Source: Phycisphaeraceae bacterium (GTDB lineage Bacteria; Planctomycetota; Phycisphaerae; Phycisphaerales; UBA1924). Taken from it: a stretch of 64,000 nucleotides of DNA. Shown here in pieces: positions 28,799-42,857 of this stretch. Location: positions 620,001 through 684,000 of the forward strand of contig JAHBWW010000002.1 of NCBI GenBank assembly GCA_019636795.1, written 5' to 3'. The notes beneath the pieces are model-generated. The model worked only from the letters and a program-made list of their open reading frames with translations. It searched no databases and was not told the DNA's origin. The position numbers and the translations under genes were made by a program. Positions within the stretch are counted from its first letter, which is position 1; each line of letters starts with the position of its first letter.

Positions 28799-30151
28799 TT
28801 AACTCGCTGGGCAGGCTGTGGAGAAAACGGTCAGGAAGAACTGCACATCAAAGAAGTTCCACTCTCCGTCGCCGTTGAGGTCGGCGCGGGCAGTCTGTCC
28901 GCTGAACTCGGCCAGGAAGCCCGAGACGTCGAAGAAGTCGATATTGCCATCGCCATTCCAGTCGGCCACGGTCGCGCCAGCCGGAACGATCTTGAAGATT
29001 TCTCCACCGTTCTGATCGCAGATGTAGATCTCGCCGTTGGCATCTTCGCCAAAGGACGTGATGCTGGTGATGCTCAGGCCTCCGCCCGGCGCCAGTTCAG
29101 CGGTGCGGACCGCGAACTGGGTCCGTACGCCATTGACCATGCGGAACGACCAGATGATATTCGAGCAGTAATCTGCGAAGAAATACGTGCCATGGTTCTC
29201 AGGCATGCGGCAGCCGCGATAGACACGCCCGCCCGTGACTGAACACCCGGACCCGCGCCCATACACATGCACCGGGAAGACCATCGTCGCAGCAGGCTGA
29301 CACCCGGTGGTGTTGAACGCGTTATTTCCCTCGTAGCAGCGCCAGCCGTAGTTCTCGCCACCGACCGAGGTGCCGGGCTGATAGTTGATTTCTTCCCACG
29401 CATTCTGACCGACGTCGGCGAGATAGAGGTCGCCGTTGGCCCGGTCGAAGGCATTGCGCCACGGGTTGCGGACGCCGTACGCCCAGATGTCGTCATCGCC
29501 GGTGATACCGACGAACGGGTTGCTTGCAGGGATGCCATACTGCCCGCCCGGAGCGTTGTTGCCATCGACATCGATGCGCAGGATCTTGCCCAGAGGCTGA
29601 TTGGTGATGGTCTGAGCACGGTTGCCAGGATCGTTGGCCGAGCCGCCGTCGCCCATGGCGATGTAGAGATATCCGTCATTGGGGCCGAACTCCATCCACC
29701 CGCCGTTGTGGTTGGAGAACGGCTGATTGATGACCCGCAGAATGCGGGCCGAAAGAAGATTGGCAATGTTGGGATCGGCCGAAACGAGATACTCGGCGAT
29801 GGTGGTGTGCCCGGAGTTGTTGGTGTAGTTGACGTAGAACTTGCCGTTGTTCGCATAGTCGGGGTGGAATGCCATGCCGAGCAAGCCCTGCTCGGATGAC
29901 GTCGTTGTGCCCCCGCCGACAATGGGATCGATGTTCATGAATGGCGTGGCGAGCAGAGCGCCGTTCTCGATGATGCGGACGATGCCTTGCTTCTCAATGA
30001 CAAAGATGCGGGTGGTGTCGCCCGGAGCATGAAACACTCCGATGGGGCGGACGAGCCCGTCGGCAACCAGAACGGTCGTCAGAGGCGTGATGTCCGCCAA
30101 GGCTGGTGCTCCGACGATAGACAAAGACAGGGCGAGCGCTGCGATTCGCAT
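28799..30151 (-). CDS. Secreted PQQ-dependent-type sugar dehydrogenase with dockerin-like tail
   Basis: 450 residues. A signal peptide ([19 protein letters not shown]) precedes a six-bladed propeller of the glucose/sorbosone dehydrogenase family: [88 protein letters not shown]. From about residue 395 comes [20 protein letters not shown] and [20 protein letters not shown], two EF-hand-like calcium loops, ending ACPAS. Family members oxidise sugars with PQQ in the periplasm or outside. The tail matches six others here, but its leading Cys is replaced by Val and the end is not exactly Gly-Cys. GGGAGGGG precedes ATG 30151. Own terminator at 28720-28750. Confidence 0.88.
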
Positions 30152-30304
30152 GGTGTTTCCCCTCCCAAGGAAATATGGTGTGCTTTCTCTTTGTTCGGCT
30201 GACGCCGACCCTCATCGAACAATAGCCAACTCATTCGCAGTTTCACAGCCGGAGGATCCGACTTCGTGCTTCCAAAGCGCCCAACTGACGCGCATTACCG
30301 GACT

Positions 30305-31642
30305 TCAATCGCATCCATCGCTGAACGACTGAAGGAAAATCTGGACATCGAAGAAATTCCACTCCCCGTCTTCATTGAGGTCGGCGGTGAGGTTTTGCAT
30401 CGAGAAATCCGACAGGAAAGCCTGTACATCGAAGAAGTTCACATCGCCGTCGCCGTTATAGTCAGCCGCGCACTCGACGACGGGGGTCGCCACAAAAACC
30501 CCGATCGTTCCATTATTGAAGAACGCCGCGAAGGCAATCTGCCCGGCGTCGTTGATGGCGATATTGCCATTCATGACCTGCTTGCCCGTGCCGCCGCCAA
30601 AGTCGAACCCGAAAGTCAGCGTTCCGATGTCGGTTTCGATCGGTTGGCCGTACTCGACGAGTTTGACGAGCCCGAGGCCGTCGCCCGCGTAGAGCGCGGT
30701 GCTCTGCGCATCGCTTGGTCGAAAGGCAACGAGCCCTTGCGAGTTGACAACCGGGGGAAAGTTCGCGAGTGAGCCATTGATGATGCCCATGTCGCCACCC
30801 TGCGCCACGGGGGTCAGGGTTCCGCCCTGATCCCAGCGCACGACTTCCCAGATCGAGTCGGCTGATCGCCTGCCTGTGAACGCTACGGTGCCGTTTTGTG
30901 CCAGAGCGGTGCTGTTGACGAACGAGTTGTATGTCGCTGCGGTGCTGGCGATGAGCGTTGGTGGGGAGCCGGGGTTCCATCGCATGACGGCTTGGCCGCC
31001 CGAAGCCGGAAGCACCTTGCCGACCATCTGCCTGGCGTCGTTGATCTGAGGCGAAAAGAGGAACGTGTACTGGCCGTCGAACGTGTTGGCGATCTGCGTT
31101 GCGTTGCGAACGCCGCCGATGAACTCCTCGATGAGATTCTTCTGGCCCGAGCCGAAACTGCCCCGGTACCCGATCGCGCCGTCACCCGCAATGGAAATCG
31201 CAGAGACGCCACTGATGCCTTCGGGACCGCCGAGCGGATAGGAATGGAGCAGCGTGCCGTTGGTGCTGCGCACTTCCGCACCGAGAGTTGGGTGCAGGAG
31301 GTACGACAGAGCGAGGCGGCCGTTGCGATTGCCAAGCCCGGAGGTGTACACCGGTTCGGAACTATTCACCTCGTGGACAAGCCCCCCGATCCCGTCCGAG
31401 CCGAAGAAAATGCCTTCGGTCGCAACACCAGAAGCAAGGAAAACCCGAATGGCCACCGAGCCGTCGTCGTCCAAAGCGACCGACTGGCTCGAGAGCGAAC
31501 TGTTCGGTGGCAGGTTGAACGGGGGGATGTTCGGATTGAGACTCGATCGGCACTGGAGTTCAAATGTCCACTGTGTCGCGGGCTGTGCGCACGCCGAAAT
31601 CGTCGCAATTGAAGTCGAGATCACCCCGAGACATATCTTCAT
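30305..31642 (-). CDS. Secreted beta-propeller-like protein with GC-type dockerin tail
   Basis: About 445 residues from ATG 31642 (GAGGGG seven bases upstream). After a signal peptide, repeated segments of the form VALDDDGSVAIRVFLASG, AISIAGDGAIGYRGSFGSG, ALAQNGTVAFTGRRSADS, VVNSQGLVAFRPS and IAINDAGQIAFAAFF recur about every 50-60 residues. This suggests a beta-propeller-like repeat fold seen in many planctomycete exported proteins. The tail has ADYNGDGDVNFFDVQAFLSD and [20 protein letters not shown], preceded by Cys and ending DGCD. No catalytic motif was recognised. Probably an extracellular or cell-surface protein of unknown role. Confidence 0.8.
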   Translation of the reverse strand: MKICLGVISTSIATISACAQPATQWTFELQCRSSLNPNIPPFNLPPNSSLSSQSVALDDDGSVAIRVFLASGVATEGIFFGSDGIGGLVHEVNSSEPVYTSGLGNRNGRLALSYLLHPTLGAEVRSTNGTLLHSYPLGGPEGISGVSAISIAGDGAIGYRGSFGSGQKNLIEEFIGGVRNATQIANTFDGQYTFLFSPQINDARQMVGKVLPASGGQAVMRWNPGSPPTLIASTAATYNSFVNSTALAQNGTVAFTGRRSADSIWEVVRWDQGGTLTPVAQGGDMGIINGSLANFPPVVNSQGLVAFRPSDAQSTALYAGDGLGLVKLVEYGQPIETDIGTLTFGFDFGGGTGKQVMNGNIAINDAGQIAFAAFFNNGTIGVFVATPVVECAADYNGDGDVNFFDVQAFLSDFSMQNLTADLNEDGEWNFFDVQIFLQSFSDGCD

Positions 31643-31732
31643 CCAAAGACCCCTCATGTGTTGAGCATCCACCATACCAGAGCATGGGCTTTGAACCAAG
31701 AACCAATCTTCGAATACGAACAAAAGCGAGGA

Positions 31733-31763
31733 TAAAAAAGCCCCGCTTCCGAAGAAGCGGGGC
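31733..31763 (-). terminator. Intrinsic terminator downstream of the 31795-33168 gene
   Basis: On the minus strand GCCCCGCTTC pairs with GAAGCGGGGC across a short loop, followed by six T residues. It lies 31 bases past the stop codon of the secreted Cys/His-rich protein gene. Confidence 0.9.
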
Positions 31764-31794
31764 GTGAGGAATATCTACCTGATTCGATGCTCGA

Positions 31795-33168
31795 TTACGG
31801 GCAGCCGTCGCTGAACGCCTGCAGGAAGATCGCTGCGTCGAAGAAGTCGATGTTGCCATCGCCGTTCAGATCGGCGGCGGGGTTGTTGGCCGAGAAGTCG
31901 CCGAGGAACAACTGGGCGTCGAAGAAGTCGACGTTGCCATCACCGTTCCAGTCGGCAAGGCACGGCACCTTGACATCGCCCGGAACAAGCGTGGGGATGG
32001 AGATCGATGTGCCACCAGGACCCGGCTTGAAGAGGTTGAGGGTCATGTTGCCAGCGACCGGTGCGCCGTCAGACACGAACTGGAAGGTGTACAACGTGCC
32101 CCAGCGGAGTGCGTTGCCGTTGGGGTTGTTGGTCCACGGGACCGGGTTGCCCCAGGAGACCGACGAACCGCTGTTGGTGTACGCCCACGGCGTGTTGTCG
32201 TAAGGCTCGCCGGAGTGATAATGCGGTGCGCGGAAGTAGTTATCGCTGGCGGAAGCACCATTGCCCAGCGGGATGACCACCGATGCGCCTGAGCGATCGG
32301 AGTCGAGGTTCTGGATGGCATAGGTGTAGGTCCAGGTGCCGTCGCCGTTGTCTTTGACCTTGCGACCGACGTGATAACGACCATCGCTGGGAGCGAAATG
32401 AGTGGTGATGTCCACGTCGGGATCGGGAACGCCGATGCCCAGGCCGTTGTCCTTCCACGCCCAGATGGCGGCCTTCTGGCGCTGGGTTGTGCCCTGAGCG
32501 GTGAGTGTGAAGTCTGCATTGACGCGGAAGCGGCGATACGAAGCGTTGTTGCCGCCGTTGCCCGCCTGAGCATCATCGGGGGTCACATAGTGGCCTTCAA
32601 AGAAGTACAGCGCGCCTGGGTAGTTTGCGGCAGTGAGGTCCACTTCGGGCACCTGACAGCGCTTGAAGATCGCGTTGCCGGTCGAGCCCTGTGGGTTGGC
32701 CCATGGATAGTTGAAGACACCGGTATAGGCATTGACCTGGAAGCGTGGCCCGAGGCCGCCCTGGCTGCCGTTGAGCGAAGCGCCGTAGGGGTCAGAGCAG
32801 TTCACGCCGAGGAGGCTGCCGGTGCCGGGATTCTGGCACGAGCCGCAAAGGTTCTGTGTCAGAGCGGTGAACCCGTGCTTGAGCCACGAAATGCCGATGT
32901 TGTCGATGCGGCCGTTCCAGACGCGATACATGTTCTGGCCAATGACCGGGTGATTCGGGTTGTTGGCCTGCCACAACAGCGGGGTCGTGCCGATGTTGCA
33001 GGACGTCGTCCCTACGGCGTACGACCTCATGCCTCCGACCGCCCCGTAGTGCACAGCACTCGGCAGGTCGCCGACGATCACGTCCGGGTTAGCCACCGAG
33101 GTCCCTGCGAGTGCAGCGAGAGCAACCAATCCGGCCGACACGCGGCCACCGTTGAGCGTTTTCTTCAT
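31795..33168 (-). CDS. Secreted Cys/His-rich protein with GC-type dockerin tail (paralogue A)
   Basis: About 457 residues from ATG 33168. A signal peptide (AGLVALAALAGTSVAN) is followed by DVIVGDL and a conserved block: TTSCNIGTTPLLW, NHPVIGQNMYRVWNGR, IGISWLKHGFTALTQNLCGSC, VNCSDPYGASLNG, then GLGPRFQVNAYTGVF and IFKRCQVPEVDL. A C-terminal beta region contains DNGDGTWTYTYAIQNLD, HYHSGEPYD and NALRWGTLYTFQFVSD. The tail has [20 protein letters not shown] and [20 protein letters not shown], preceded by Cys and ending DGCP. The same architecture recurs in the protein at 37696-39000. The clustered Cys and His could hold a metal; I do not know the function. Own terminator at 31733-31763. Confidence 0.8.
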   Translation of the reverse strand: MKKTLNGGRVSAGLVALAALAGTSVANPDVIVGDLPSAVHYGAVGGMRSYAVGTTSCNIGTTPLLWQANNPNHPVIGQNMYRVWNGRIDNIGISWLKHGFTALTQNLCGSCQNPGTGSLLGVNCSDPYGASLNGSQGGLGPRFQVNAYTGVFNYPWANPQGSTGNAIFKRCQVPEVDLTAANYPGALYFFEGHYVTPDDAQAGNGGNNASYRRFRVNADFTLTAQGTTQRQKAAIWAWKDNGLGIGVPDPDVDITTHFAPSDGRYHVGRKVKDNGDGTWTYTYAIQNLDSDRSGASVVIPLGNGASASDNYFRAPHYHSGEPYDNTPWAYTNSGSSVSWGNPVPWTNNPNGNALRWGTLYTFQFVSDGAPVAGNMTLNLFKPGPGGTSISIPTLVPGDVKVPCLADWNGDGNVDFFDAQLFLGDFSANNPAADLNGDGNIDFFDAAIFLQAFSDGCP

Positions 33169-33379
33169 TTTGACATTCTCCCTTGCAGCGATGCCTGTTC
33201 CAAAGCATCGCCTATCCATAAAAGGCCCAATCGCCAGCCTCTCCGCGAGACGGACGCAAGGATCAGTGTAACGGCTTTTCCTGGGCAGTCCAACTCAAAA
33301 ATCGACAACTTCTTGTTGAATTCGTACCTGCAAGTGCAGAAAGATCTTTGAGTTATCGGTCGTCAACGCCCGATAAGAT

Positions 33380-34486
33380 TCAGCACCCTCCCGAAAACAG
33401 GGATAAGTACTGGAGGACGTCGAAGAAGTCGAAACTTCCATCGCCCGTCAAATCTGCTGCAGGCGCGCCGACTGCATAGGCGCCGAGAAACCCCTGGACG
33501 TCAAAAAAGTCGAGCACCCCGTCCCCATTCCAGTCGGCCGGACAGACGCATTGGTCTGGCAGCCCATCGCCGTTCTGGTCGGTCACGGTGTCGCCGCCGG
33601 CGCGAGCCAGGGCCATGATGAGTTCAAGATCGAGTGCGTTGATAGTCCCATCCTGATTGGCGTCGGTCGGTTGATTGGCCCACGCGCACGCATCGTCGAG
33701 ATTGACAACGCCATCGCCCGTGAGATCAAGATACGCTGGCGGCATGGCGGGCACCCAATGGCTCACACCCAGAGACGCGCTTGATTGCGCCGTGAACACG
33801 AACCCGCCCGCAGGAACAAACGATCCGGTGCTGGTCGTGCGCAACTCGTATCGGCCCGGAGCAAGCAGCCTCTGGGTCGAGGCCATCGTTGCGCTGGTTG
33901 TCCCGCTCCATGTTTCGTGAATCAACGCGCCCTGATTGGTCAGTGGATCGACCGGTCCGACGAGTTCTGTGTCAAGGTAGGTCTGCGCCTGCTGGAGTGC
34001 CTGGTTGGCTGTTGAGTTCCAGACGATGTCGGCGGTTACCCATTCATGCAAAACAACGCTCCCAGTCACTTGCGTGCTCATCTGGCCGATCGCGAAGCCC
34101 ACCTGTCCGATCTGGCTGGAAAGATTTGCCCTGATGCGGCACAGGATCACTACGGATATCGAGTTGCTGTTGATGATGCGCGATTGAGCATTGATATCGC
34201 GCCCGAGTGTGGTGTGCGGGCATCCGCCGTTGAACTCGGTCAACATCTGACTGATCGACAATGCCTGTGAGCCGTTCCAATTGCCTGGCCACGGCACAGA
34301 GCAGATCGGAACGCCAAGGTCGGTGTCGATCGTCTGAGCGGTCTGATTGGTCTCGATGACGTAGCTGACGGCTGGGTCACTGAAGACTTGTGCGACGCTT
34401 GGCGAGATGACACCCACGAGGATGGTCGCGGCCGAAATACAATGCGGCACACAAAGATTGAAACCTGAATGCGACCGACTTCTCAT
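33380..34486 (-). CDS. Secreted protein with two dockerin-like segments
   Basis: About 368 residues from ATG 34486 (GGAGG six bases upstream). After the signal peptide come ~210 residues of beta-rich sequence (FSDPAVSYVIETNQTAQTID, GQVGFAIGQMSTQVTGSVVL, APGRYELRTTSTGSFVPAGG). Then there is a first calcium-loop pair, LDLTGDGVVNLDDACAWANQ and DANQDGTINALDLELIMALA, which resembles an ordinary type I dockerin, and a bridging DQNGDGLPDQCVC. Last is the GC-type pair ADWNGDGVLDFFDVQGFLGA and ADLTGDGSFDFFDVLQYLSL, ending SGGC. The repeated F-T-A and S-V-V strands suggest a jelly-roll-like fold. No enzymatic motif seen. Probably exported and cell-surface associated. Confidence 0.78.
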   Translation of the reverse strand: MRSRSHSGFNLCVPHCISAATILVGVISPSVAQVFSDPAVSYVIETNQTAQTIDTDLGVPICSVPWPGNWNGSQALSISQMLTEFNGGCPHTTLGRDINAQSRIINSNSISVVILCRIRANLSSQIGQVGFAIGQMSTQVTGSVVLHEWVTADIVWNSTANQALQQAQTYLDTELVGPVDPLTNQGALIHETWSGTTSATMASTQRLLAPGRYELRTTSTGSFVPAGGFVFTAQSSASLGVSHWVPAMPPAYLDLTGDGVVNLDDACAWANQPTDANQDGTINALDLELIMALARAGGDTVTDQNGDGLPDQCVCPADWNGDGVLDFFDVQGFLGAYAVGAPAADLTGDGSFDFFDVLQYLSLFSGGC

Positions 34487-34613
34487 GATGAACCTCCGGC
34501 CGAGCACAAGACGCCTGGAACCAGATGCATCCGTGCGGGAAGATTGTGACTCGACCAAGCCATCGCGTCAAGTCGAGCCGTTTGAGCTCTCAAGCCACGA
34601 ACGAACTGGAGCG

Positions 34614-37526
34614 TCAGAAGCAACCAAGTGCGTAGTCGTTCAGGAAAGCCTGGACGTCGAAGAAGTCGATGAGGCCATCGCCGTTGTAATCGCCATAAAG
34701 AGCCTGACTGGTGTACGCGTTGAGGAAGTACTGCACATCGAAGAAATCGAGCACGCCGTCTGCGTTGACGTCGGCCTCGCATGTCCACACCGCTTCAACC
34801 TTGGTCGCTGTGATCTGAAGCCTGAAAATCCCGAGACCGACCTGTGGGACAAGAACCGTGTGGGGCTGGCCAACGATGTTTTGGCCGGAAATGAGTGTGA
34901 AGCGAGTATTGAAAGGCGGGACATAGCCATCAAGCAACTCGATCTTGAGTGTGCCATCCAACGACAGGCCCTGGTTGCTCGTCGTGAGTCGATCATAATC
35001 GTTGATCGCTGCGCCTGCGATGTCGAACTTGAGCTGTGTAGTGTCGGCCAGCATCGGCAAAGTACCGATGTGAATGAGGCTCGTGCGATCTGAATCAGAT
35101 CCTGGATCGAGCGTGCCCAGAATCGTCAACGAGCCATCCAACGCGCCTCTCCCTGCAATGGTCTGATGTTGACCGATTGTGACCGATCCATCACCTGTGG
35201 TTCCCATCTGTGCGTCGCCAAGATCGGCTGTAGTGGCATTGAGCAGGATGATTCCGCTGCCACCGATCGTTACTGTCTCGGAAGTGTTCAGTCGCGCATT
35301 GGTTGAGGATCCTGCCGGGTTGATAACAAGCGTGCCGTTGTTGGTCATGCCTCCCGCGCCGATGTTGAGCGTGGCTCCATGGCGAACACCGTTGACTCCT
35401 TCAAGAGTCGTCGCGTCGACACGACTCGCGCTGCCCGATCCTTCGACACCACCAAGCCACATGCCGCCGGTCATCATGCCCGACAAGGTGACTGTACCGC
35501 CGTTGGTGCCTTGCATGACTCCGCCTGCACTGGCGTCGATCTGGCCCGAGACAGCAACCTCGCGTCCGTTGCGGTCGGCGCTGATCATGCCATCAAGCAC
35601 GATTGGGCCGGCAACTGAGCCTGAGCCCGAGATCGTCTGTGTGCTGCCGATGGTCAGTTCGGCGTCGGTAGCGCCCGCGATCTGAGCATCGCCCAGATCG
35701 GCGGTGATGCTGTTGAGCTCGATATTTCCGTCGCCGACGATGGCCGCTGGGGCAATCGAGCGCATGTGAGCATTGGTCGACGAACCCACGGTATTGACGA
35801 CGATCGTGCCATTGTTGGAAAGCCCGCCGCCCGCGAGACTGAGTGTGGCACCCGGGCGCACGCCGTTGACGCCCGACGCCGAGACGCCGTCATAGATCGC
35901 CTGTGAAAAATCGGCTTCGACATTCCCGGCGATGTGCCCCCCGCTCAGCGTGCCTCGGAGCGACACAGCCCCACCATTCGACCCCCAGAGCATGCCATCG
36001 ATGCCTGCGTTGATCGAGCCCGAAACCACGATGTCGCGTGCTGTGCGGTCGGCGTTGATGGCACCATCGAGCACCATGGGCCCATACACAGCACCTGAAC
36101 CTGAGATTGTCTGCCCGCTGCCGATGGTCAGCGTGGCACCAGCAGCCCCTGCGATCTGTGCGTCGTTGAAGTCAGCGGTGATGCTGTTGAGTTCGAGTTT
36201 GCCGATGCCGGAGATGCTGCTGGGTGTTGTTGAACGGAGCAGGGCGTTGGTGGTCGAGCCGGTGGTGTTGATGATCCATGTGCCGTTGTTGACAAGCCCG
36301 GCATTGATGACGCTGAGGGTTGCGCCGGGGCGAAGGCCATTGATGCCGGTGGAGGTGACACCATCGAGACTTCCGGTGGAGAGTTGTGCCTCGACGCCGC
36401 CCGCGAGATGGCCGCCGGCGAGGCTGCCCTGAAATGCGATTGTCCCGTCGTTGGTGCCTTGCATGGTGCCGGACGAAGAAGCTGTGATCGAGCCAGAGAC
36501 TGCAATATCGCGATTCTTGCGATCGGCATTGATGGTGCCGAGCAGATGAACCGGGCCGGAGACACTGCCCGAACCGTTGACGGTCTGATCTTGACCGATC
36601 GTGAGCGTTGCATCCACCGAACCACTGAGTTGTGCGTCGTTGATATCTGCAGTAATGCTGTTGAGTTCGATGGTGCCCGAGCCGTAGATGGTCGCAGGTT
36701 CGGTGGAACGCACAAGGGCGTTGGTCGTCGATGCGGAGGTATTGACGACCCACCTGCCCTCATTGACAAGCCCGCCTCCAAGGATGCTGAGTGTGGCGCC
36801 CGGGCGGACCCCATTGTCGCCGGTGGAAGTCGATCCATTGATGGTTGCTGCCGCTCCTTGTGCCTCGACACTGCTGATGGCACCGCCGACAATGGTGCCT
36901 GAGAGCATGGCCTTGCCGCCGCCGGAGCCGAAGATGATGCCCCCCGCACTGGCGTCGATGTCCCCTGCAAGCTGAATGTCGCGTCCATTGCGGTCGGGAT
37001 TGATGGTGCCCTCAAGCATGATGGGGCCAGTCAGCAAGCCGGAACCAGCGACAACCTGACCGGGGCCGATGGTGAGCACGCCTGAACCGGTGCCGCTGAG
37101 TCGTGCATCGCCAAGATCGGCGGTGATCGAGTTGAGTTCGATATGCCCGGTGCCCGTGATGCTGGTGGGATCGATAGCTCGAAAAAGTGCATCGACACTG
37201 GAACCTGTCGGGTTGATGATGATCAATCCGTTGTTGATGAACCCCCCGCTACCCAGGCTGAAAATTCGACTGGCTTCGATTTCGAGAGTATTGCCCATGT
37301 GGAGCGTGACCCCGAGAATGCTGGCCGAGAGATTGAACCCAACGGTGTATGCCACGCCCAGATCACCAAGCAGCGCCGTCTCGACGAGCGAGTTGGGAAC
37401 ATCCATGGGCGACCAGTTCGACGCTGTATTCCAGCTGCCACCGGCCGCATTCACCCATTCGGTCTGCGACACCGCGGCACCAGCACACATCACAAGCGCA
37501 GCCACAGCAGGCACTCGGCTCAACAT
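34614..37526 (-). CDS. Large repetitive beta-helix-like exported protein with GC-type dockerin tail
   Basis: 970 residues. The signal peptide MLSRVPAVAALVMCAGAAVS is followed by WVNAAGGSWNTASNWSP, a common start of autotransporter-like proteins. From about residue 90 a ~158-residue unit recurs: IELNSITADLGDA, then GSGSVSGPVHLLGTINADR, then DIAVSGSITASSSGTM, then GVNGVRPGATLSLAGGGLSNNG. The LNSITAD-type motif occurs five times (last copy LNATTAD). This suggests a right-handed beta helix. The C-terminus has a passenger-end-like TQLKFDIAGAAINDYDRLT segment and then ADVNADGVLDFFDVQYFLNA and GDYNGDGLIDFFDVQAFLND, preceded by Cys and ending LGCF. GGAGGGAG before ATG 37526. No autotransporter barrel is present. 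An adhesin or surface structural role is an inference. Confidence 0.83.
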   Translation of the reverse strand: MLSRVPAVAALVMCAGAAVSQTEWVNAAGGSWNTASNWSPMDVPNSLVETALLGDLGVAYTVGFNLSASILGVTLHMGNTLEIEASRIFSLGSGGFINNGLIIINPTGSSVDALFRAIDPTSITGTGHIELNSITADLGDARLSGTGSGVLTIGPGQVVAGSGLLTGPIMLEGTINPDRNGRDIQLAGDIDASAGGIIFGSGGGKAMLSGTIVGGAISSVEAQGAAATINGSTSTGDNGVRPGATLSILGGGLVNEGRWVVNTSASTTNALVRSTEPATIYGSGTIELNSITADINDAQLSGSVDATLTIGQDQTVNGSGSVSGPVHLLGTINADRKNRDIAVSGSITASSSGTMQGTNDGTIAFQGSLAGGHLAGGVEAQLSTGSLDGVTSTGINGLRPGATLSVINAGLVNNGTWIINTTGSTTNALLRSTTPSSISGIGKLELNSITADFNDAQIAGAAGATLTIGSGQTISGSGAVYGPMVLDGAINADRTARDIVVSGSINAGIDGMLWGSNGGAVSLRGTLSGGHIAGNVEADFSQAIYDGVSASGVNGVRPGATLSLAGGGLSNNGTIVVNTVGSSTNAHMRSIAPAAIVGDGNIELNSITADLGDAQIAGATDAELTIGSTQTISGSGSVAGPIVLDGMISADRNGREVAVSGQIDASAGGVMQGTNGGTVTLSGMMTGGMWLGGVEGSGSASRVDATTLEGVNGVRHGATLNIGAGGMTNNGTLVINPAGSSTNARLNTSETVTIGGSGIILLNATTADLGDAQMGTTGDGSVTIGQHQTIAGRGALDGSLTILGTLDPGSDSDRTSLIHIGTLPMLADTTQLKFDIAGAAINDYDRLTTSNQGLSLDGTLKIELLDGYVPPFNTRFTLISGQNIVGQPHTVLVPQVGLGIFRLQITATKVEAVWTCEADVNADGVLDFFDVQYFLNAYTSQALYGDYNGDGLIDFFDVQAFLNDYALGCF
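35150..37253 (-). repeat. About five in-frame tandem repeats of ~474 bp inside the giant exported protein gene
   Basis: The codons for the LNSITAD-type motif fall near 37125, 36650, 36175, 35700 and 35225, giving a period close to 474 bp (158 codons). The copies are similar at DNA as well as protein level; for example the string around GTGATGCTGTTGAG recurs. The fifth copy is incomplete at its C-terminal side. Limits are approximate. Confidence 0.75.
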
Positions 37527-37695
37527 GTTTGCTCCCTCCGTCTAAGAGTCTCTGCACCAGCACCGCACTCCTCCGAGCGGAGTCTGGCGAGACTTGAAAC
37601 ACACAGCGTACCCGCGTTTAAGTGCTACAGAATGCCCAAAGTCAGAAAAATCGCGATCTTTCGTCCGATATCACTCCCTGCCTATCCCGGGCCTT

Positions 37696-39000
37696 TTACG
37701 GGCAGCCATCGCTGAAGAGGCCAAGGAAGATCTGCACGTCAAAGAAGTTGATCAACTCGTCGCCGTTGAAATCCGCAGCCGGGTCATTGGCCGAGAACGC
37801 CGCCAGAAATTCCTGAACGTCGAAGAAGTTGACATCGCCATCACCATTGAAGTCGGCCAAGCACGGCGCAGTCGACGGGATCAGCGATACAACGTCCACC
37901 ACATCGAGCACTCCATCGAGGAACGGTTCGATCCTGACATTTCCGGCTGTCGGTGGGCTGGTCGATATGAAACGGAAGTTGTACAGCGTTCCCCACCGCA
38001 GTGCATTGGTGTTCGCCTCGTCAATAGAGTCCACGACAGCATTCCACCGGACATGGCCCTCATTGATATCGCTCGCCCAGTCTGTCGTGCTGTAAGGCTC
38101 ACCAGAGTGATACTCAACATCGTGAAACCCGATCACGCTGACGACTCCGTCGCCCATCGGCACGAAGAAACCTTTCGCGGCACGATGGGCGTTGACGTTT
38201 TCGACCGCGTACTCGTAGGTCCACGTCCCGTCGTTGTTGTCCGTGACAAGCGCCCCGACCCAGAAACGTCCGTCATCGGGCAGATCAACGTGATTCAGAG
38301 TGACCTGTGGATGAGCCTCTGCCCACGCAAAGATTGCCGGCTGCATGCGCCGCGTCTGGCCGGAGAAAGTCAACCCAAAGTTTGGCGCCACCGTCACGGG
38401 TCTCCATGAGAGGCTGTTGGTGCCGGTAGGCGATTCATCCTTCGAGACGATCTGGGCACTTGCATAGTAACTGGCACCCGGAGTCGTCAGGTCGGCCTCG
38501 TGCACTTGAAGACGCTTGAAGATGATGTTCCCAACTGATCCCATTTCCTGTTGAGGAAACTCGAACACTCCGGTGAATGGGTTGATGCGGGATCGCGCTC
38601 CCAGTCCCTGCTGCTGCCCCATGATCGACGCACTGCTGACCTCCGAGCATCCCGCCCCGAGCTGCGCCCCCGGCGTACCGGGAGTACATGTCTGGCACAG
38701 CGCCTGCTGCAGCGCAAAGAAACCGTGATGCGCCCAACTCATGCCGATTTGCTCAAATCGACCCTCGTGAAGTCGATACAGGTTCATCGTGATGATCGGG
38801 TGATTGGACGAACTGGCGTGCCACGCTGCGGGCTCGTTGCCCACGTTGCATGTTGCGACTCCGAACGAATAGGCGTGAATGTTGCCATCATTGCCCCACC
38901 GAGTCGGGCCGAAGAGATCCCCCACGATCAGATCAGGGCCAGCACCGCTTGCCAGCGAGGCACAAGCCGCAGCCAGAAGAGTCGCAATCGTCGCGTTCAT
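37696..39000 (-). CDS. Secreted Cys/His-rich protein with GC-type dockerin tail (paralogue B)
   Basis: About 434 residues from ATG 39000 (AGGAG nine bases upstream). A signal peptide (TLLAAACASLASGAG) precedes DLIVGDL and the block TCNVGNEPAAW, NHPIITMNLYRLHEGR, IGMSWAHHGFFALQQALCQTC, AGCSEVSSASIMG, GLGARSRINPFTGVF, IFKRLQVHEADL. Then come NNDGTWTYEYAVENVN, EYHSGEPYS and NALRWGTLYNFRFIS. These align in order with paralogue A at 31795-33168. The tail has ADFNGDGDVNFFDVQEFLAA and ADFNGDELINFFDVQIFLGL; the second loop has Glu in place of the usual Gly. It ends DGCP. Function unknown; exported. Confidence 0.8.
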   Translation of the reverse strand: MNATIATLLAAACASLASGAGPDLIVGDLFGPTRWGNDGNIHAYSFGVATCNVGNEPAAWHASSSNHPIITMNLYRLHEGRFEQIGMSWAHHGFFALQQALCQTCTPGTPGAQLGAGCSEVSSASIMGQQQGLGARSRINPFTGVFEFPQQEMGSVGNIIFKRLQVHEADLTTPGASYYASAQIVSKDESPTGTNSLSWRPVTVAPNFGLTFSGQTRRMQPAIFAWAEAHPQVTLNHVDLPDDGRFWVGALVTDNNDGTWTYEYAVENVNAHRAAKGFFVPMGDGVVSVIGFHDVEYHSGEPYSTTDWASDINEGHVRWNAVVDSIDEANTNALRWGTLYNFRFISTSPPTAGNVRIEPFLDGVLDVVDVVSLIPSTAPCLADFNGDGDVNFFDVQEFLAAFSANDPAADFNGDELINFFDVQIFLGLFSDGCP

Positions 39001-39217
39001 GGCACAGCACTCCTTTGTCACTCTCCGAATGGAGAAATGTGCCTGAGCGTACCACAAGTCAGCGCGAGCCGCAATACGAAATCAAGGGGATTCCCGACCC
39101 GATTCCGGTGTTGTTACAAAGTTCTGTATTCCGCGAATCGCACTATCGCCACTCGAACCGCAACGCAGTCTCGCTGGTTCTATCCAGCAGCCTTGCATCC
39201 ACGGTCAAAGCGTGCGG

Positions 39218-40765
39218 TCATCCGTGAATCAGTCGCCCTTCAGCTGCGAGCGCCGCCTCGTGCACCGCCTCGTGCATCGTCGGATGTGCGTGGACCGTTG
39301 CAATGAGTTCCTCGGTCGTGGCTTCGAGTCGGCGCGCCAGCGTCAGTTCTGCGATGAGTTCAGTCGCCTGATCGCCCATGATGTGTGCACCAAGAATTTC
39401 CCCGCGAGGCAATCCACGAATGATCTTGACAAACCCATCGGTGTGAGCCGCCGCGATGGCTTTGCCGTGTGCCTGGAAATTGTACTTGCCGACTTCGTAG
39501 TCTTCGCCCTTCTTAAGCCCCTGAGCCTTGAGCGCCTGCTCGGTGAAACCAACGCTGGCGACTTGTGGCTGGCAATATGTACACCCGGGAATGACGGAGT
39601 AATCCATCGGAATCGGCTCGTGCTTTTCCTTGCCGTCGCGCCAGGCAATACGCTCGATACAGAGGATCGCCTCTTCGCTTGCAACGTGCGCCAGCCAGGG
39701 CGGACCGATGACATCGCCGATGGCATAAACACCTTCGAGATTGGTCTTGTAGTCGATGTGCTTGGGGTCGCCATACACACCGGGGACATAATCGGTCTTG
39801 ATGTGCCCCTTGTGGGTCTCGAGTCCGAGCTTGTCATCGAATAACCCGTCGTAGCGGCCTCCGACTCCAATCGCCAGCAGAATCCGGTCGGCTTCGAGCG
39901 TTTCCTTCTTGCTCTCGTCGGGCTTGCCATCTTTCATCGGCGCGATCGTGACCTTCACGGTCTTGCTCTTGGCATCGACACCGACCGCCGTCGAACCAAG
40001 TTTGAACTCCACGCCCGCCTTCTTGTAATGCTTGAGCATGGCAGCTGAAACTTCTTCGTCCTCGACCGGCAGAATGCGGTCCATCATCTCGATGACCGTG
40101 ACCTTGGTGCCGAAGGAGTGGTAGAAGTAACCAAACTCCATGCCGATCGCACCCGAGCCGACGACGATCAGGCTGGCGGGCTTTTCCTTGTTGTACATGG
40201 CCTCGCGCGCACCCCAGATCTTCGGATCCGTGCCGAACTTGGCAAAAGGAAGATCGCGCGCGACCGAGCCCGTCGCGATCAGAACGTTGGTCGCTGTAAT
40301 CGTCTCGCGCGGCTTGTCTGCCGGCCTGGCGGGCGCATCGGTCCGCTCTTCCTGCACCTGACAATCATAAATCTCGACCGCGCATGGCTCCTTGCCCTTG
40401 CGCGCACGCACAATCTTGGCCGACCCGACGATGTGATCGACCTTGTTCTTCTTGAGCAGAAACTCGATACCCTTGTTGAGTTTTTCCGCCACCCCTCGAC
40501 TGCGCGAGATCACCTTGTCCCACTCAAACTTGATCTCGCCTTCGATCTTGAGGCCCCAGAAATCACCGTGATTGAGTTTCTCCATCAGTTCGGCGTTCGA
40601 GAGCAGGGCTTTGGACGGAATGCACCCCCAGTTCAGACACACCCCTCCAAGTTTGGCCCGCTCAACACACGCGACCTTGTACCCAAGTTGAGCCGCCCGA
40701 ATCGCGCCGACATACCCGCCGGGACCGCCGCCGATGACCACAAAGTCGTAGTGCTTGTTTGCCAC
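39218..40765 (-). CDS. lpdA: Dihydrolipoyl dehydrogenase
   Basis: 515 residues. The FAD-binding start is YDFVVIGGGPGGYVGAIRAA. The redox-active disulfide is GGVCLNWGCIPSKAL. The NAD-binding loop is LIVVGSGAIGMEFGYFYHSF. EGVYAIGDVIGPPWLAHVAS is the second FAD segment, and the C-terminal HAHPTMHEAVHEAAL holds the catalytic His-Glu pair. It regenerates lipoamide for 2-oxo acid dehydrogenases and the glycine cleavage system. Slightly longer than usual because of a Lys/Ala-rich insertion near residues 125-150 (VQEERTDAPARPADKPRE). It interrupts the dockerin-tailed gene island, and no dehydrogenase-complex gene adjoins it. Confidence 0.95.
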   Translation of the reverse strand: MANKHYDFVVIGGGPGGYVGAIRAAQLGYKVACVERAKLGGVCLNWGCIPSKALLSNAELMEKLNHGDFWGLKIEGEIKFEWDKVISRSRGVAEKLNKGIEFLLKKNKVDHIVGSAKIVRARKGKEPCAVEIYDCQVQEERTDAPARPADKPRETITATNVLIATGSVARDLPFAKFGTDPKIWGAREAMYNKEKPASLIVVGSGAIGMEFGYFYHSFGTKVTVIEMMDRILPVEDEEVSAAMLKHYKKAGVEFKLGSTAVGVDAKSKTVKVTIAPMKDGKPDESKKETLEADRILLAIGVGGRYDGLFDDKLGLETHKGHIKTDYVPGVYGDPKHIDYKTNLEGVYAIGDVIGPPWLAHVASEEAILCIERIAWRDGKEKHEPIPMDYSVIPGCTYCQPQVASVGFTEQALKAQGLKKGEDYEVGKYNFQAHGKAIAAAHTDGFVKIIRGLPRGEILGAHIMGDQATELIAELTLARRLEATTEELIATVHAHPTMHEAVHEAALAAEGRLIHG

Positions 40766-41006
40766 GTTGAGTGTTCCTGCTCAGAGAGTGCCTGACCCGA
40801 ATCTCGAAGCCCAAACTCGAGGTTCGTGGGCACTATAGGAAGTCCACCCCTCGCCCCGCCGGGTCAGGGCTATCGGACTCGCGCAATCCTCGTTCCAAGG
40901 CAAACACTTCACATGATGACAAACCAAAAAAGTCTTGTGCCATTGTGCAGAATCGGATATCGTAGATGGTCGATATCGGAGCTGTAGAGCGATTGGTTTT
41001 TTGATC

Positions 41007-41012
41007 GGGGAG
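41007..41012 (+). promoter_or_regulatory. Ribosome-binding site supporting a GTG start for the cytochrome gene
   Basis: GGGGAG lies six bases before GTG 41019. The codons after it give the charged N-terminus and hydrophobic helix expected of an exported protein, so the longer open frame upstream is unlikely to be translated. Confidence 0.6.
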
Positions 41013-41018
41013 AAGTTC

Positions 41019-42857
41019 GTGATCTCAAGAAAATCGTTGAAGCGAGAAGGGCTGTGGGTCTTAGTGCTTGGCGCAGGAATCGCGGCCATTGGCATCGGGA
41101 TGCCCGCGCCGACCACCATTGAAGACTTCTTCGGCCCCGGCACCCAGCCCTCGACCATGCTCGACCCCATCCTGACCGCTCAGGCGTGCTCGTTCTGCCA
41201 CGGCAACTACAACGAGACTCACGAGCCATACCGACCCTGGGCTGCCAGCATGATGGGCCAAGCCGCCCGCGATCCGTTGTTCCATGCCTGCCTCGCAATC
41301 GCTGAGCAGGATGCCCCAGGCTCGGGCGACATGTGTATTCGCTGCCACGCACCCGCAGGCTGGCTCGATGGTCGAAGCATCCCGACCGACGGCTCGTCAC
41401 TCATCGGTGCCGACTTCGAAGGCGTCTCCTGCAACTTCTGCCACCGCATGGTCGATCCCGACTACAAGCCCGGTGTCAGCCCCATCGAGGACGTCGAGAT
41501 TCTCGGCGCTCTTTCACCGCTTCCCCCGGCAAGCGCACACTCGGGCCAGTACGTCATGGACCCGTGGGATGTCCGCCGCGGCCCGCGCGACCTCGGGCCC
41601 AAGTTCTTCTTTCACCCCTGGCTTCAGTCGCCGTTCCACCAAAGCGCGTCAATGTGCGCCACATGCCACGATGTCTCGAACCCCGTCTATGAACGCCAGC
41701 CCGACGGCAAGTACCTCCCCGGCCAGTGGAACGCCCCGGCTGCGAGTTTTGAAAAGTACGACCAGTTCCCGCTGGAACGAACCTATAGCGAATGGCTCAT
41801 GAGTTCATTCGCCTCGGGCCCTATCGACATGGGCGGACGCTTTGGCGGCAACAACCCCAATGTGAGCACCTGCCAGGATTGCCACATGCCCACGACCACA
41901 GGCCGGGGTTGCACCTTCGAGGACTTCCCCGAACGCAACGATCTGCGCCAGCACTTCTTCAACGGCGGCAACACCTGGGTGCTCCAGGCTGTCCGCAACC
42001 TTTACCCTGACTTCGAAACCGGCCTGACGCAAGAGTCAGTCAACGACTCCATCGCCCGGGCGGTCGACATGCTTCGCAATGCCTCAGATATGGAGCTCTT
42101 TGATGGCGGTTCGACGGTGCGCGTCCGCATCACTAACGAATCGGGCCACAAACTCCCGACGGGCTACCCCGAAGGTCGGCGCATGTGGCTCAACGTCAAG
42201 TTCTTCGACAGCAAGGACAATCTGCTCGTCGAACACGGCTCGTATGACTACGACACCGCCATCCTCACAACCGGAAACACCAAGGTCTATGAAGCCAAAC
42301 TCGGGATCAGCCCCGAAGTCGCCCCGCTGTTCGACAAGGAACCCGGCGAGAGTTTCCACTTCGTCCTGAACAACATGTATGTCAAGGACAACCGCATCCC
42401 GCCGCGCGGGTTCACGAACGCCGGCTTCGAGGCCATTCAGGCCGCCCCGGTCGCATACTCCTACGCCGACGGGCAGCATTGGGATGACACCGACTTCACG
42501 ATCCCCCAAGGTGCTGCACGCGTCGAAGCCCGGCTCTTCTATCAGACAGCATCCAAGGAATACATCGACTTCCTGCGATCCGAAAACAAGACCAACAATG
42601 CTGGCGAGGTCGCGTACGAACAATGGCTCGTGACCGGCAAGAGTGCCCCCGTCGAGATGGACTTTGCATCGCTCGAAATCGCCCAGCCCTGCCTCGGCGA
42701 TTTCAACGGCGACGGCGATGTCAACTTCTTCGACGTTCAGGCCTTCCTCGGTGCATTCTCCGCCAATCATCCCTCAGCCGACCTGAACAACGACGGGCTC
42801 TACAACTTCTTCGATGTGCAGATCTTCCTCCAGGCGTTCAGCGACGGCTGCCCCTGA
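41019..42857 (+). CDS. Five-haem c-type cytochrome with GC-type dockerin tail
   Basis: About 612 residues. An N-terminal export helix (LWVLVLGAGIAAIGIGMPAP) precedes five CxxCH haem c motifs: CSFCH (Cys57), CIRCH (~106), CNFCH (~138), CATCH (~220) and CQDCH (~290). Several His residues (HEPYRPW, ARDPLFHAC) could be distal ligands. The C-terminal half lacks haem motifs and has beta-rich sequence (GSTVRVRITNESGHKLPTGY, EAKLGISPEVAPLFDKEPGE). The tail has GDFNGDGDVNFFDVQAFLGA and ADLNNDGLYNFFDVQIFLQA, preceded by Cys and ending DGCP. Probably a periplasmic or surface electron-transfer protein or oxidoreductase; the partner is unknown. A terminator follows at 42898-42926. Confidence 0.86.
   Translation: MISRKSLKREGLWVLVLGAGIAAIGIGMPAPTTIEDFFGPGTQPSTMLDPILTAQACSFCHGNYNETHEPYRPWAASMMGQAARDPLFHACLAIAEQDAPGSGDMCIRCHAPAGWLDGRSIPTDGSSLIGADFEGVSCNFCHRMVDPDYKPGVSPIEDVEILGALSPLPPASAHSGQYVMDPWDVRRGPRDLGPKFFFHPWLQSPFHQSASMCATCHDVSNPVYERQPDGKYLPGQWNAPAASFEKYDQFPLERTYSEWLMSSFASGPIDMGGRFGGNNPNVSTCQDCHMPTTTGRGCTFEDFPERNDLRQHFFNGGNTWVLQAVRNLYPDFETGLTQESVNDSIARAVDMLRNASDMELFDGGSTVRVRITNESGHKLPTGYPEGRRMWLNVKFFDSKDNLLVEHGSYDYDTAILTTGNTKVYEAKLGISPEVAPLFDKEPGESFHFVLNNMYVKDNRIPPRGFTNAGFEAIQAAPVAYSYADGQHWDDTDFTIPQGAARVEARLFYQTASKEYIDFLRSENKTNNAGEVAYEQWLVTGKSAPVEMDFASLEIAQPCLGDFNGDGDVNFFDVQAFLGAFSANHPSADLNNDGLYNFFDVQIFLQAFSDGCP

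Follow-up and report, generated by a model that had tools for sequence, protein, structure and literature searches.

Genome-Specific Dialects in the C-Terminal GC-Type Dockerin Tails of a Phycisphaeraceae Bacterium and Its Relatives

Seven genes in the window, the whole 64,000-nucleotide stretch of DNA that was analyzed, encode proteins with a shared C-terminal tail of the GC-type dockerin family, and the helices of such tails tend to follow one residue pattern within a genome and a different one in its relatives. On balance, we regard the tail as a dockerin-fold docking tag, probably clasped by a disulfide and matched genome by genome to one shared surface partner. A bolder version is offered tentatively, as a proposal with somewhat less than an even chance: around a hundred disulfide-clasped tags per genome may make up a genome-wide code, with a face, and in some genomes loop inserts, switching together to suit one undescribed receptor other than a cohesin. 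The open reading frames of all seven genes are present at the coordinates given in parentheses below, that of the cytochrome c-like gene being open from 40935, and their tails lie as follows.

28802..28972, minus strand: on the GSDH-domain protein (gene 28799-30151), with Thr in place of the leading Cys and the end ACPAS
30308..30472, minus strand: on a DUF7453 / NxxGxxAF protein (gene 30305-31723), with the pattern C...GCD
31798..31962, minus strand: on an exported protein whose family was not recognized (gene 31795-33219), with the pattern C...GCP
33383..33544, minus strand: on another exported protein (gene 33380-34558), with the pattern C...GC
34617..34781, minus strand: on an exported protein of 970 aa with repetitive sequence (gene 34614-37526), with the pattern C...GCF
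37699..37863, minus strand: on a protein homologous to that of gene 31795 (gene 37696-39057), with the pattern C...GCP
42690..42854, plus strand: on a multihaem cytochrome c-like protein (gene 41019-42857), with the pattern C...GCP

The original prediction, made from the sequence of the window, held that seven proteins share one tail of about 55 residues with DxNxDG-type loops and a dockerin identity, and this is borne out by both profile and predicted fold. The module is approximately 55 residues long and C-terminal in all seven proteins, and every copy exceeds the curated cut-off of 29 bits of NF041540, the NCBIfam model for GC-type dockerins, with scores from 33.9 to 49.4 bits. Pfam Dockerin_1 sees the module weakly, with one of the seven above the gathering score (23.1 vs 22.9 bits) and six below. 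The bodies that precede the tails are of various kinds, among them a multihaem cytochrome-like protein, a protein with a sugar dehydrogenase fold, a DUF7453 protein, and a repetitive one. Homology links two of the seven, 31795 and 37696, which are 45% identical with the tail included. Six tails carry a Cys three positions ahead of the first loop Asp (C-x-x-D) and terminate in GC followed by zero or one residue. The seventh, on the sugar dehydrogenase, ends in ACPAS and retains the terminal Cys, and it has Thr (T-V-A-D) where the others align their leading Cys. The predicted cysteine pattern is confirmed for the six and for the ACPAS end, and the Val that had been assigned to the dehydrogenase has to be corrected to Thr. 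The minus-strand gene 33380-34558 also encodes extra F-hand-like loops just upstream of its GC tail, and the best Pfam Dockerin_1 stretch of this protein covers residues 298-353.

Structure prediction, which had been proposed as a check, was run with AlphaFold on 68 tails as input and gave a model with a pLDDT of 93.7 and a pTM of 0.78, in which two helices span residues 16-27 and 43-55. The first seven rows returned by Foldseek are dockerin or cohesin-dockerin entries, with no row at E<=0.001, and the same is true of all 14 entries listed by VIA-align, whose best match, 2y3n_B, has a Z of 5.7 over 55 residues at 2.3 Å. These scores are modest because the module is small. The tail is confidently predicted to adopt the paired F-hand fold of a dockerin.

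The window's tails are part of a far larger set. A search of the whole genome (3.49 Mb, 97.13% complete), also suggested at the outset, returned 115 NF041540 matches at E<=10, with 97 sites over the cut-off. Seven tails within 14.06 kb were not matched in 2000 random placements of the 97 sites, the largest group being 6; the grouping is a true cluster and not chance, and part of it is local duplication, given the homology of the 31795 and 37696 proteins. Signal-peptide-like N-termini were scored by a home-made heuristic in 71 of 78 tail-bearing reading frames with an upstream stop in the stretch. In a sample of 294 genomes from the phylum, 20 have a tail match at E<=0.001 and 11 score above the cut-off, and 7 of the 20 belong to the window's own family. 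Within that family, a match is present in 119 of the 120 genomes sampled, above the cut-off in 116; many have at least 45 scored tail matches, and first-look candidates reach 235. Tail-bearing relatives are MAGs labeled Phycisphaerales, Phycisphaerae, Planctomycetota, or plain bacterium, and one is labeled Cyanobacteria. The tails of this last MAG (L110, L118, L119, L121, L124, and L174) are of the Phycisphaerales type with a VQ helix pattern, and it is probably a mislabeled bin.

The proposal of a cysteine clasp depended on the leading and terminal Cys occurring together across the family, and they do. Among 92 tails in register in the window genome, 86 have both Cys, 4 have neither, and 2 are discordant, one with the leading Cys only and the other, the sugar dehydrogenase of the window, with the terminal Cys only (Fisher p 9e-6, for tails that are not independent of each other). 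The 92 are drawn from the 97 sites over the cut-off: L067 has both Cys but yielded no pair to the register script, L102 likewise yielded none and has no GC tail, and L019, L104, and L105 each have at least 31 residues beyond the match. Four more overlapping or spurious frames were excluded from the set of tails of this genome. The tail of L091 ends in FSGG and keeps the leading Cys with no terminal Cys. Under a looser position rule, both Cys are present in 80 of 80 tails from the MAG set (the best 80 of 420), 12 of 12 in G034, 11 of 11 in G172, 11 of 11 in G270, and 5 of 5 in G278; in G251, 3 of 5 tails have both and 2 have the leading Cys only. Read by eye, genomes with loop inserts have the leading Cys in 20 of 20 tails and the terminal Cys in all 19 that are readable to the end. 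Loss of both Cys together fits a pair, and from this pattern the two are likely joined by a disulfide. The parity of Cys in the protein bodies was searched for a disulfide signal and gave none (30 even and 34 odd among Cys-bearing bodies). The window genome, 97% complete, has no match to VKOR, DsbB, or Thioredoxin_4 in three family searches, despite its many Cys-bearing exported proteins. The ends of a known dockerin are held by a noncovalent clasp of Tyr-5 with Pro-66 (PMC4728124), and the leading Cys would fall about one residue from the clasp Tyr if the numbering used there agrees with that of chain 2mte.

By our pattern, 152 of the 184 calcium loops in the window genome are canonical and 17 depart from the pattern in miscellaneous ways. 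The other 15, of which 11 sit in repeat 1, have a 13-residue D-x-x-x-P-x-G form in which the usual ligands of positions 3 and 5 are missing. Carriers of this P-x-G loop include L041, L030, L060, L023, L052, L071, and L079 in the window genome and also L171 in another. In a survey of 20 further tails (L267-L286, of which L282 is partial) from G404, G356, G416, G515, G341, G558, and G551, both calcium loops contain an insert, approximately a dozen residues long in G404 and G356 and shorter in G341 and G558. The inserts are alike within most of these genomes, and the tails of G416 have more than one loop form.

The central observation concerns the helices that follow the loops. Their residues tend to be uniform within a genome and different in its relatives, at positions 13 and 14 and also at 10 and 21, and the dialect is common to both F-hand helices and to unrelated proteins of one genome. 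It was read from an alignment of 216 tails from 24 genomes, which was limited to tails that score at least 20 bits and stop within 8 residues of the end of the frame; the tails of G172, G034, G270, G278, G251, and genomes added later were chosen from the listed top matches. The window genome uses FFDVQxFL, with Gln at position 14 in 70 and 72 of 92 tails in the two repeats. Many MAGs have FFDVSAFL or FFDISAFL, the RFGK genome has FFDVL (three tails), G172 and G034 share IFDFLAFQN, and G270 has NFADLNxVL. A looser DLAxLL with AWG is found in G278 and G251, where position 14 is mixed (2 and 3 of 5 in repeat 1). Among genomes with at least 5 tails, information about the genome of origin peaks at position 14, with 1.76 and 1.84 bits in the two repeats against approximately 0.5 after shuffling, and is next highest at positions 21 and 13; it is nil at Asp 12, in a stretch (positions 9-12) for which the MAG tails are uninformative because they were retrieved by patterns fixing parts of NxDG..FFD. 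The residue at position 14 is the same in repeat 1 and repeat 2 in 0.84 of proteins; when the two repeats are taken from different proteins, agreement is 0.65 within a genome and 0.20 between genomes. Positions 10, 14, 17, and 21 would lie on one stripe of the helix. Because each dialect extends over unrelated proteins, this pattern in the residues points to one shared partner per genome. The original prediction of a single receptor or sorting machine for all of the tails gains support as far as a common partner goes, and neither a receptor nor a machine was found.

In cellulosomes, the dockerin is the plug and the cohesin is the socket. The search for a cohesin-like or sorting partner that accompanied the prediction yielded no cohesin in the window genome, either with Pfam PF00963 (no match at E<=10, sequence level) or with a custom profile (A4) built from 27 domains of the order and class (no match at E<=1, sequence level), and cohesin was rejected as the general partner. 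The PF00963 search covered the window genome, 22 sequence handles, and 251 genomes of the order, 21 of which have a cohesin above the cut-off. With the custom profile, 34 of 120 family genomes match at E<=1 and 17 at E<=1e-5, several of the searched genomes having supplied domains to the profile, and 86 have no match even at E<=1. By hand count, the profile finds a cohesin in 2 of the 11 genomes with at most 19 tail candidates and in 15 of the remaining 109, and whether a family genome has a cohesin bears no relation to its abundance of tails. The cohesin-bearing proteins of other genomes are not a general feature, and some among the matches listed combine the cohesin with further domains. Read by eye, L036, L232, and L252 (from three family genomes, G278, G505, and G425) join a matrixin-like metalloprotease to a cohesin-like domain and dockerin-like loops. 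L033 of G220 is a small protein in which inspection by eye shows a signal peptide, a single cohesin domain, and a membrane helix at the C-terminus; on this reading it is a membrane-anchored cohesin.

It is against these searches that the strongest alternative, a highly diverged cohesin on a planctosome-like scaffold that sequence profiles miss, has to be weighed. Cohesins do occur in the order and the family, at the frequencies given above. Pfam families were scanned in 84 tail-bearing proteins of the window genome (eight longer than 900 residues were excluded), which include 5 subtilases, 4 M12B peptidases, 2 GSDH proteins, 2 lamin-tail proteins, and 1 M14 peptidase, as well as FG-GAP and propeller proteins. 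The M12B and M14 members resemble the planctosome cargo described in PMC6461901. Even a profile derived from the same order and class finds nothing in the window genome, however, and the presence of a cohesin is unrelated to the number of tail candidates, which leaves a diverged cohesin an unlikely partner, albeit one to keep in view.

A second alternative is that the tail is a secretion or sorting signal, with the terminal Cys as a site of processing or covalent attachment. The tail is C-terminal, and 0 to 7 residues follow the terminal Cys; most of the 92 tails end in GC with at most one residue after it, and Pro follows the Cys in 62. These features would suit such a site, as would the lack of a disulfide enzyme in the three family searches. 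In contrast, the terminal Cys comes with the leading Cys, and no hydrophobic membrane stretch follows the tail, the end coming shortly past the second helix in tails inspected by eye. Exosortase, tried as the sorting machine, was rejected: all 120 family genomes have it, however many tails they carry, and its ubiquity makes it uninformative on the tails. A sorting signal is, on this evidence, improbable. With no cohesin recognized in the window genome and exosortase everywhere, neither names the partner.

The dialects might also have arisen without any partner, with the tail serving as a folding or stability cap and drift acting through duplication or gene conversion. Duplication of tails within a lineage would make the tails of one genome alike, and some of the bodies are related, with 91 bodies grouping into 56 clusters. 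Were tails inherited along with the genes that bear them, orthologous bodies would be expected to have similar tails. This expectation was compared with 155 reciprocal body pairs, 78 of which cross differing position-14 dialects; genomes with fewer than 3 tails were excluded, the host majority was computed without the tail in question, and the bodies of L003-L032 may be incomplete, these being partial loci. Position 14 is the host majority at 149 of 166 distinct cross-dialect tail-sites; of the others, 9 have the residue of the partner genome in at least one comparison and 8 have neither. Position 13 (45 pairs) agrees with the host at 91 of 108 sites, with the partner genome at 7, and with neither at 10. 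The cytochrome of the window and L107, for example, have bodies that are 70.8% identical and tails that read VQ and VL. Orthologous bodies bear the dialect of their host, and this counts against the cap, as does a genome signal that is strongest at position 14 and absent at Asp 12. At most conserved tail positions, codon diversity is about that of the gene bodies, which argues against the cap and makes recent gene conversion unlikely; it falls clearly below expectation for Phe 10 and Gln 14, in the cap's favor, and slightly below at positions 9 and 21. Older copying of tails may have occurred. We consider a stability cap hardly probable, and selection for fit to a common partner would be the simplest cause of the dialects. 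Little credence is given to self-association, in which tails bind one another through a self-complementary helix face, gather the cargo into a matrix, and change together: the dialect shared by both repeats and by unrelated proteins is what it would demand, and the cohesin searches found no receptor, but we know of no dockerin precedent for self-binding.

The docking tag that we favor would work as follows. Two calcium-binding F-hand loops, each followed by a helix, would form the C-terminal tag, which the exported cargo would fold outside the cell with calcium. The disulfide between the leading and terminal Cys would probably lock the ends of the tag, and the symmetric face of helix 1 and helix 3 may bind one cell-surface partner, possibly in either orientation. 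In the window genome, that partner would not be a recognizable cohesin. Each genome would keep its tags matched to its own partner, and genome-wide dialects would result. These dialects make the search for the socket testable, since from one genome to another the socket's binding surface would be expected to change along with tail positions 13-14 and 21. The plug family is present in 119 of 120 sampled family genomes, while 86 of the 120 have no cohesin-profile match at E<=1. Protein assembly would benefit from such a ready-made set of tag and partner specificities, to which a covalent clasp may belong.

Among known systems, PEP-CTERM is likewise a C-terminal tag common to many exported proteins, and it consists of a motif, a membrane helix, and a basic end. 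The window tail is instead a folded module lacking the membrane helix and basic end, and exosortase presence is independent of the tails. With the type I dockerins of clostridial cellulosomes, the tail shares two F-hands, the predicted fold, and internal symmetry; this symmetry permits type I dockerins two binding orientations (PMC12484212). The window-type tail differs in that its loops start 27 residues apart and its Cys pair lies close to where the clasp would be, and the searches of the window genome found no cognate cohesin. Of the 68 Pfam families in the 84 cargo proteins scanned, none of the 25 commonest is a cellulase. The planctosome is a planctomycete system. According to Andrei et al. 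2019 on Nemodlikiaceae, dockerin-bearing peptidases of freshwater Planctomycetes, named as reprolysin-like and M14 peptidases, are proposed to assemble extracellularly, in a model that includes cohesin-bearing anchor and adaptor proteins (PMC6461901). Both systems have planctomycete peptidases with tails, M12B and M14 being among the cargo here, whereas the search of the window genome found no cohesin anchor or adaptor of the kind in that model. The phrase GC-type dockerin was not found in the open-licence literature searched, and the available portions of that literature yielded no account of dialects, Cys co-loss, loop inserts, or a missing cohesin. The window tails belong to the same family as the NF041540 GC-type dockerins, with seven of seven over the curated cut-off. 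This family was already known and named, and what the present comparison of tails would add to it are the dialects, the joint loss of the two Cys, and the matching loop inserts.
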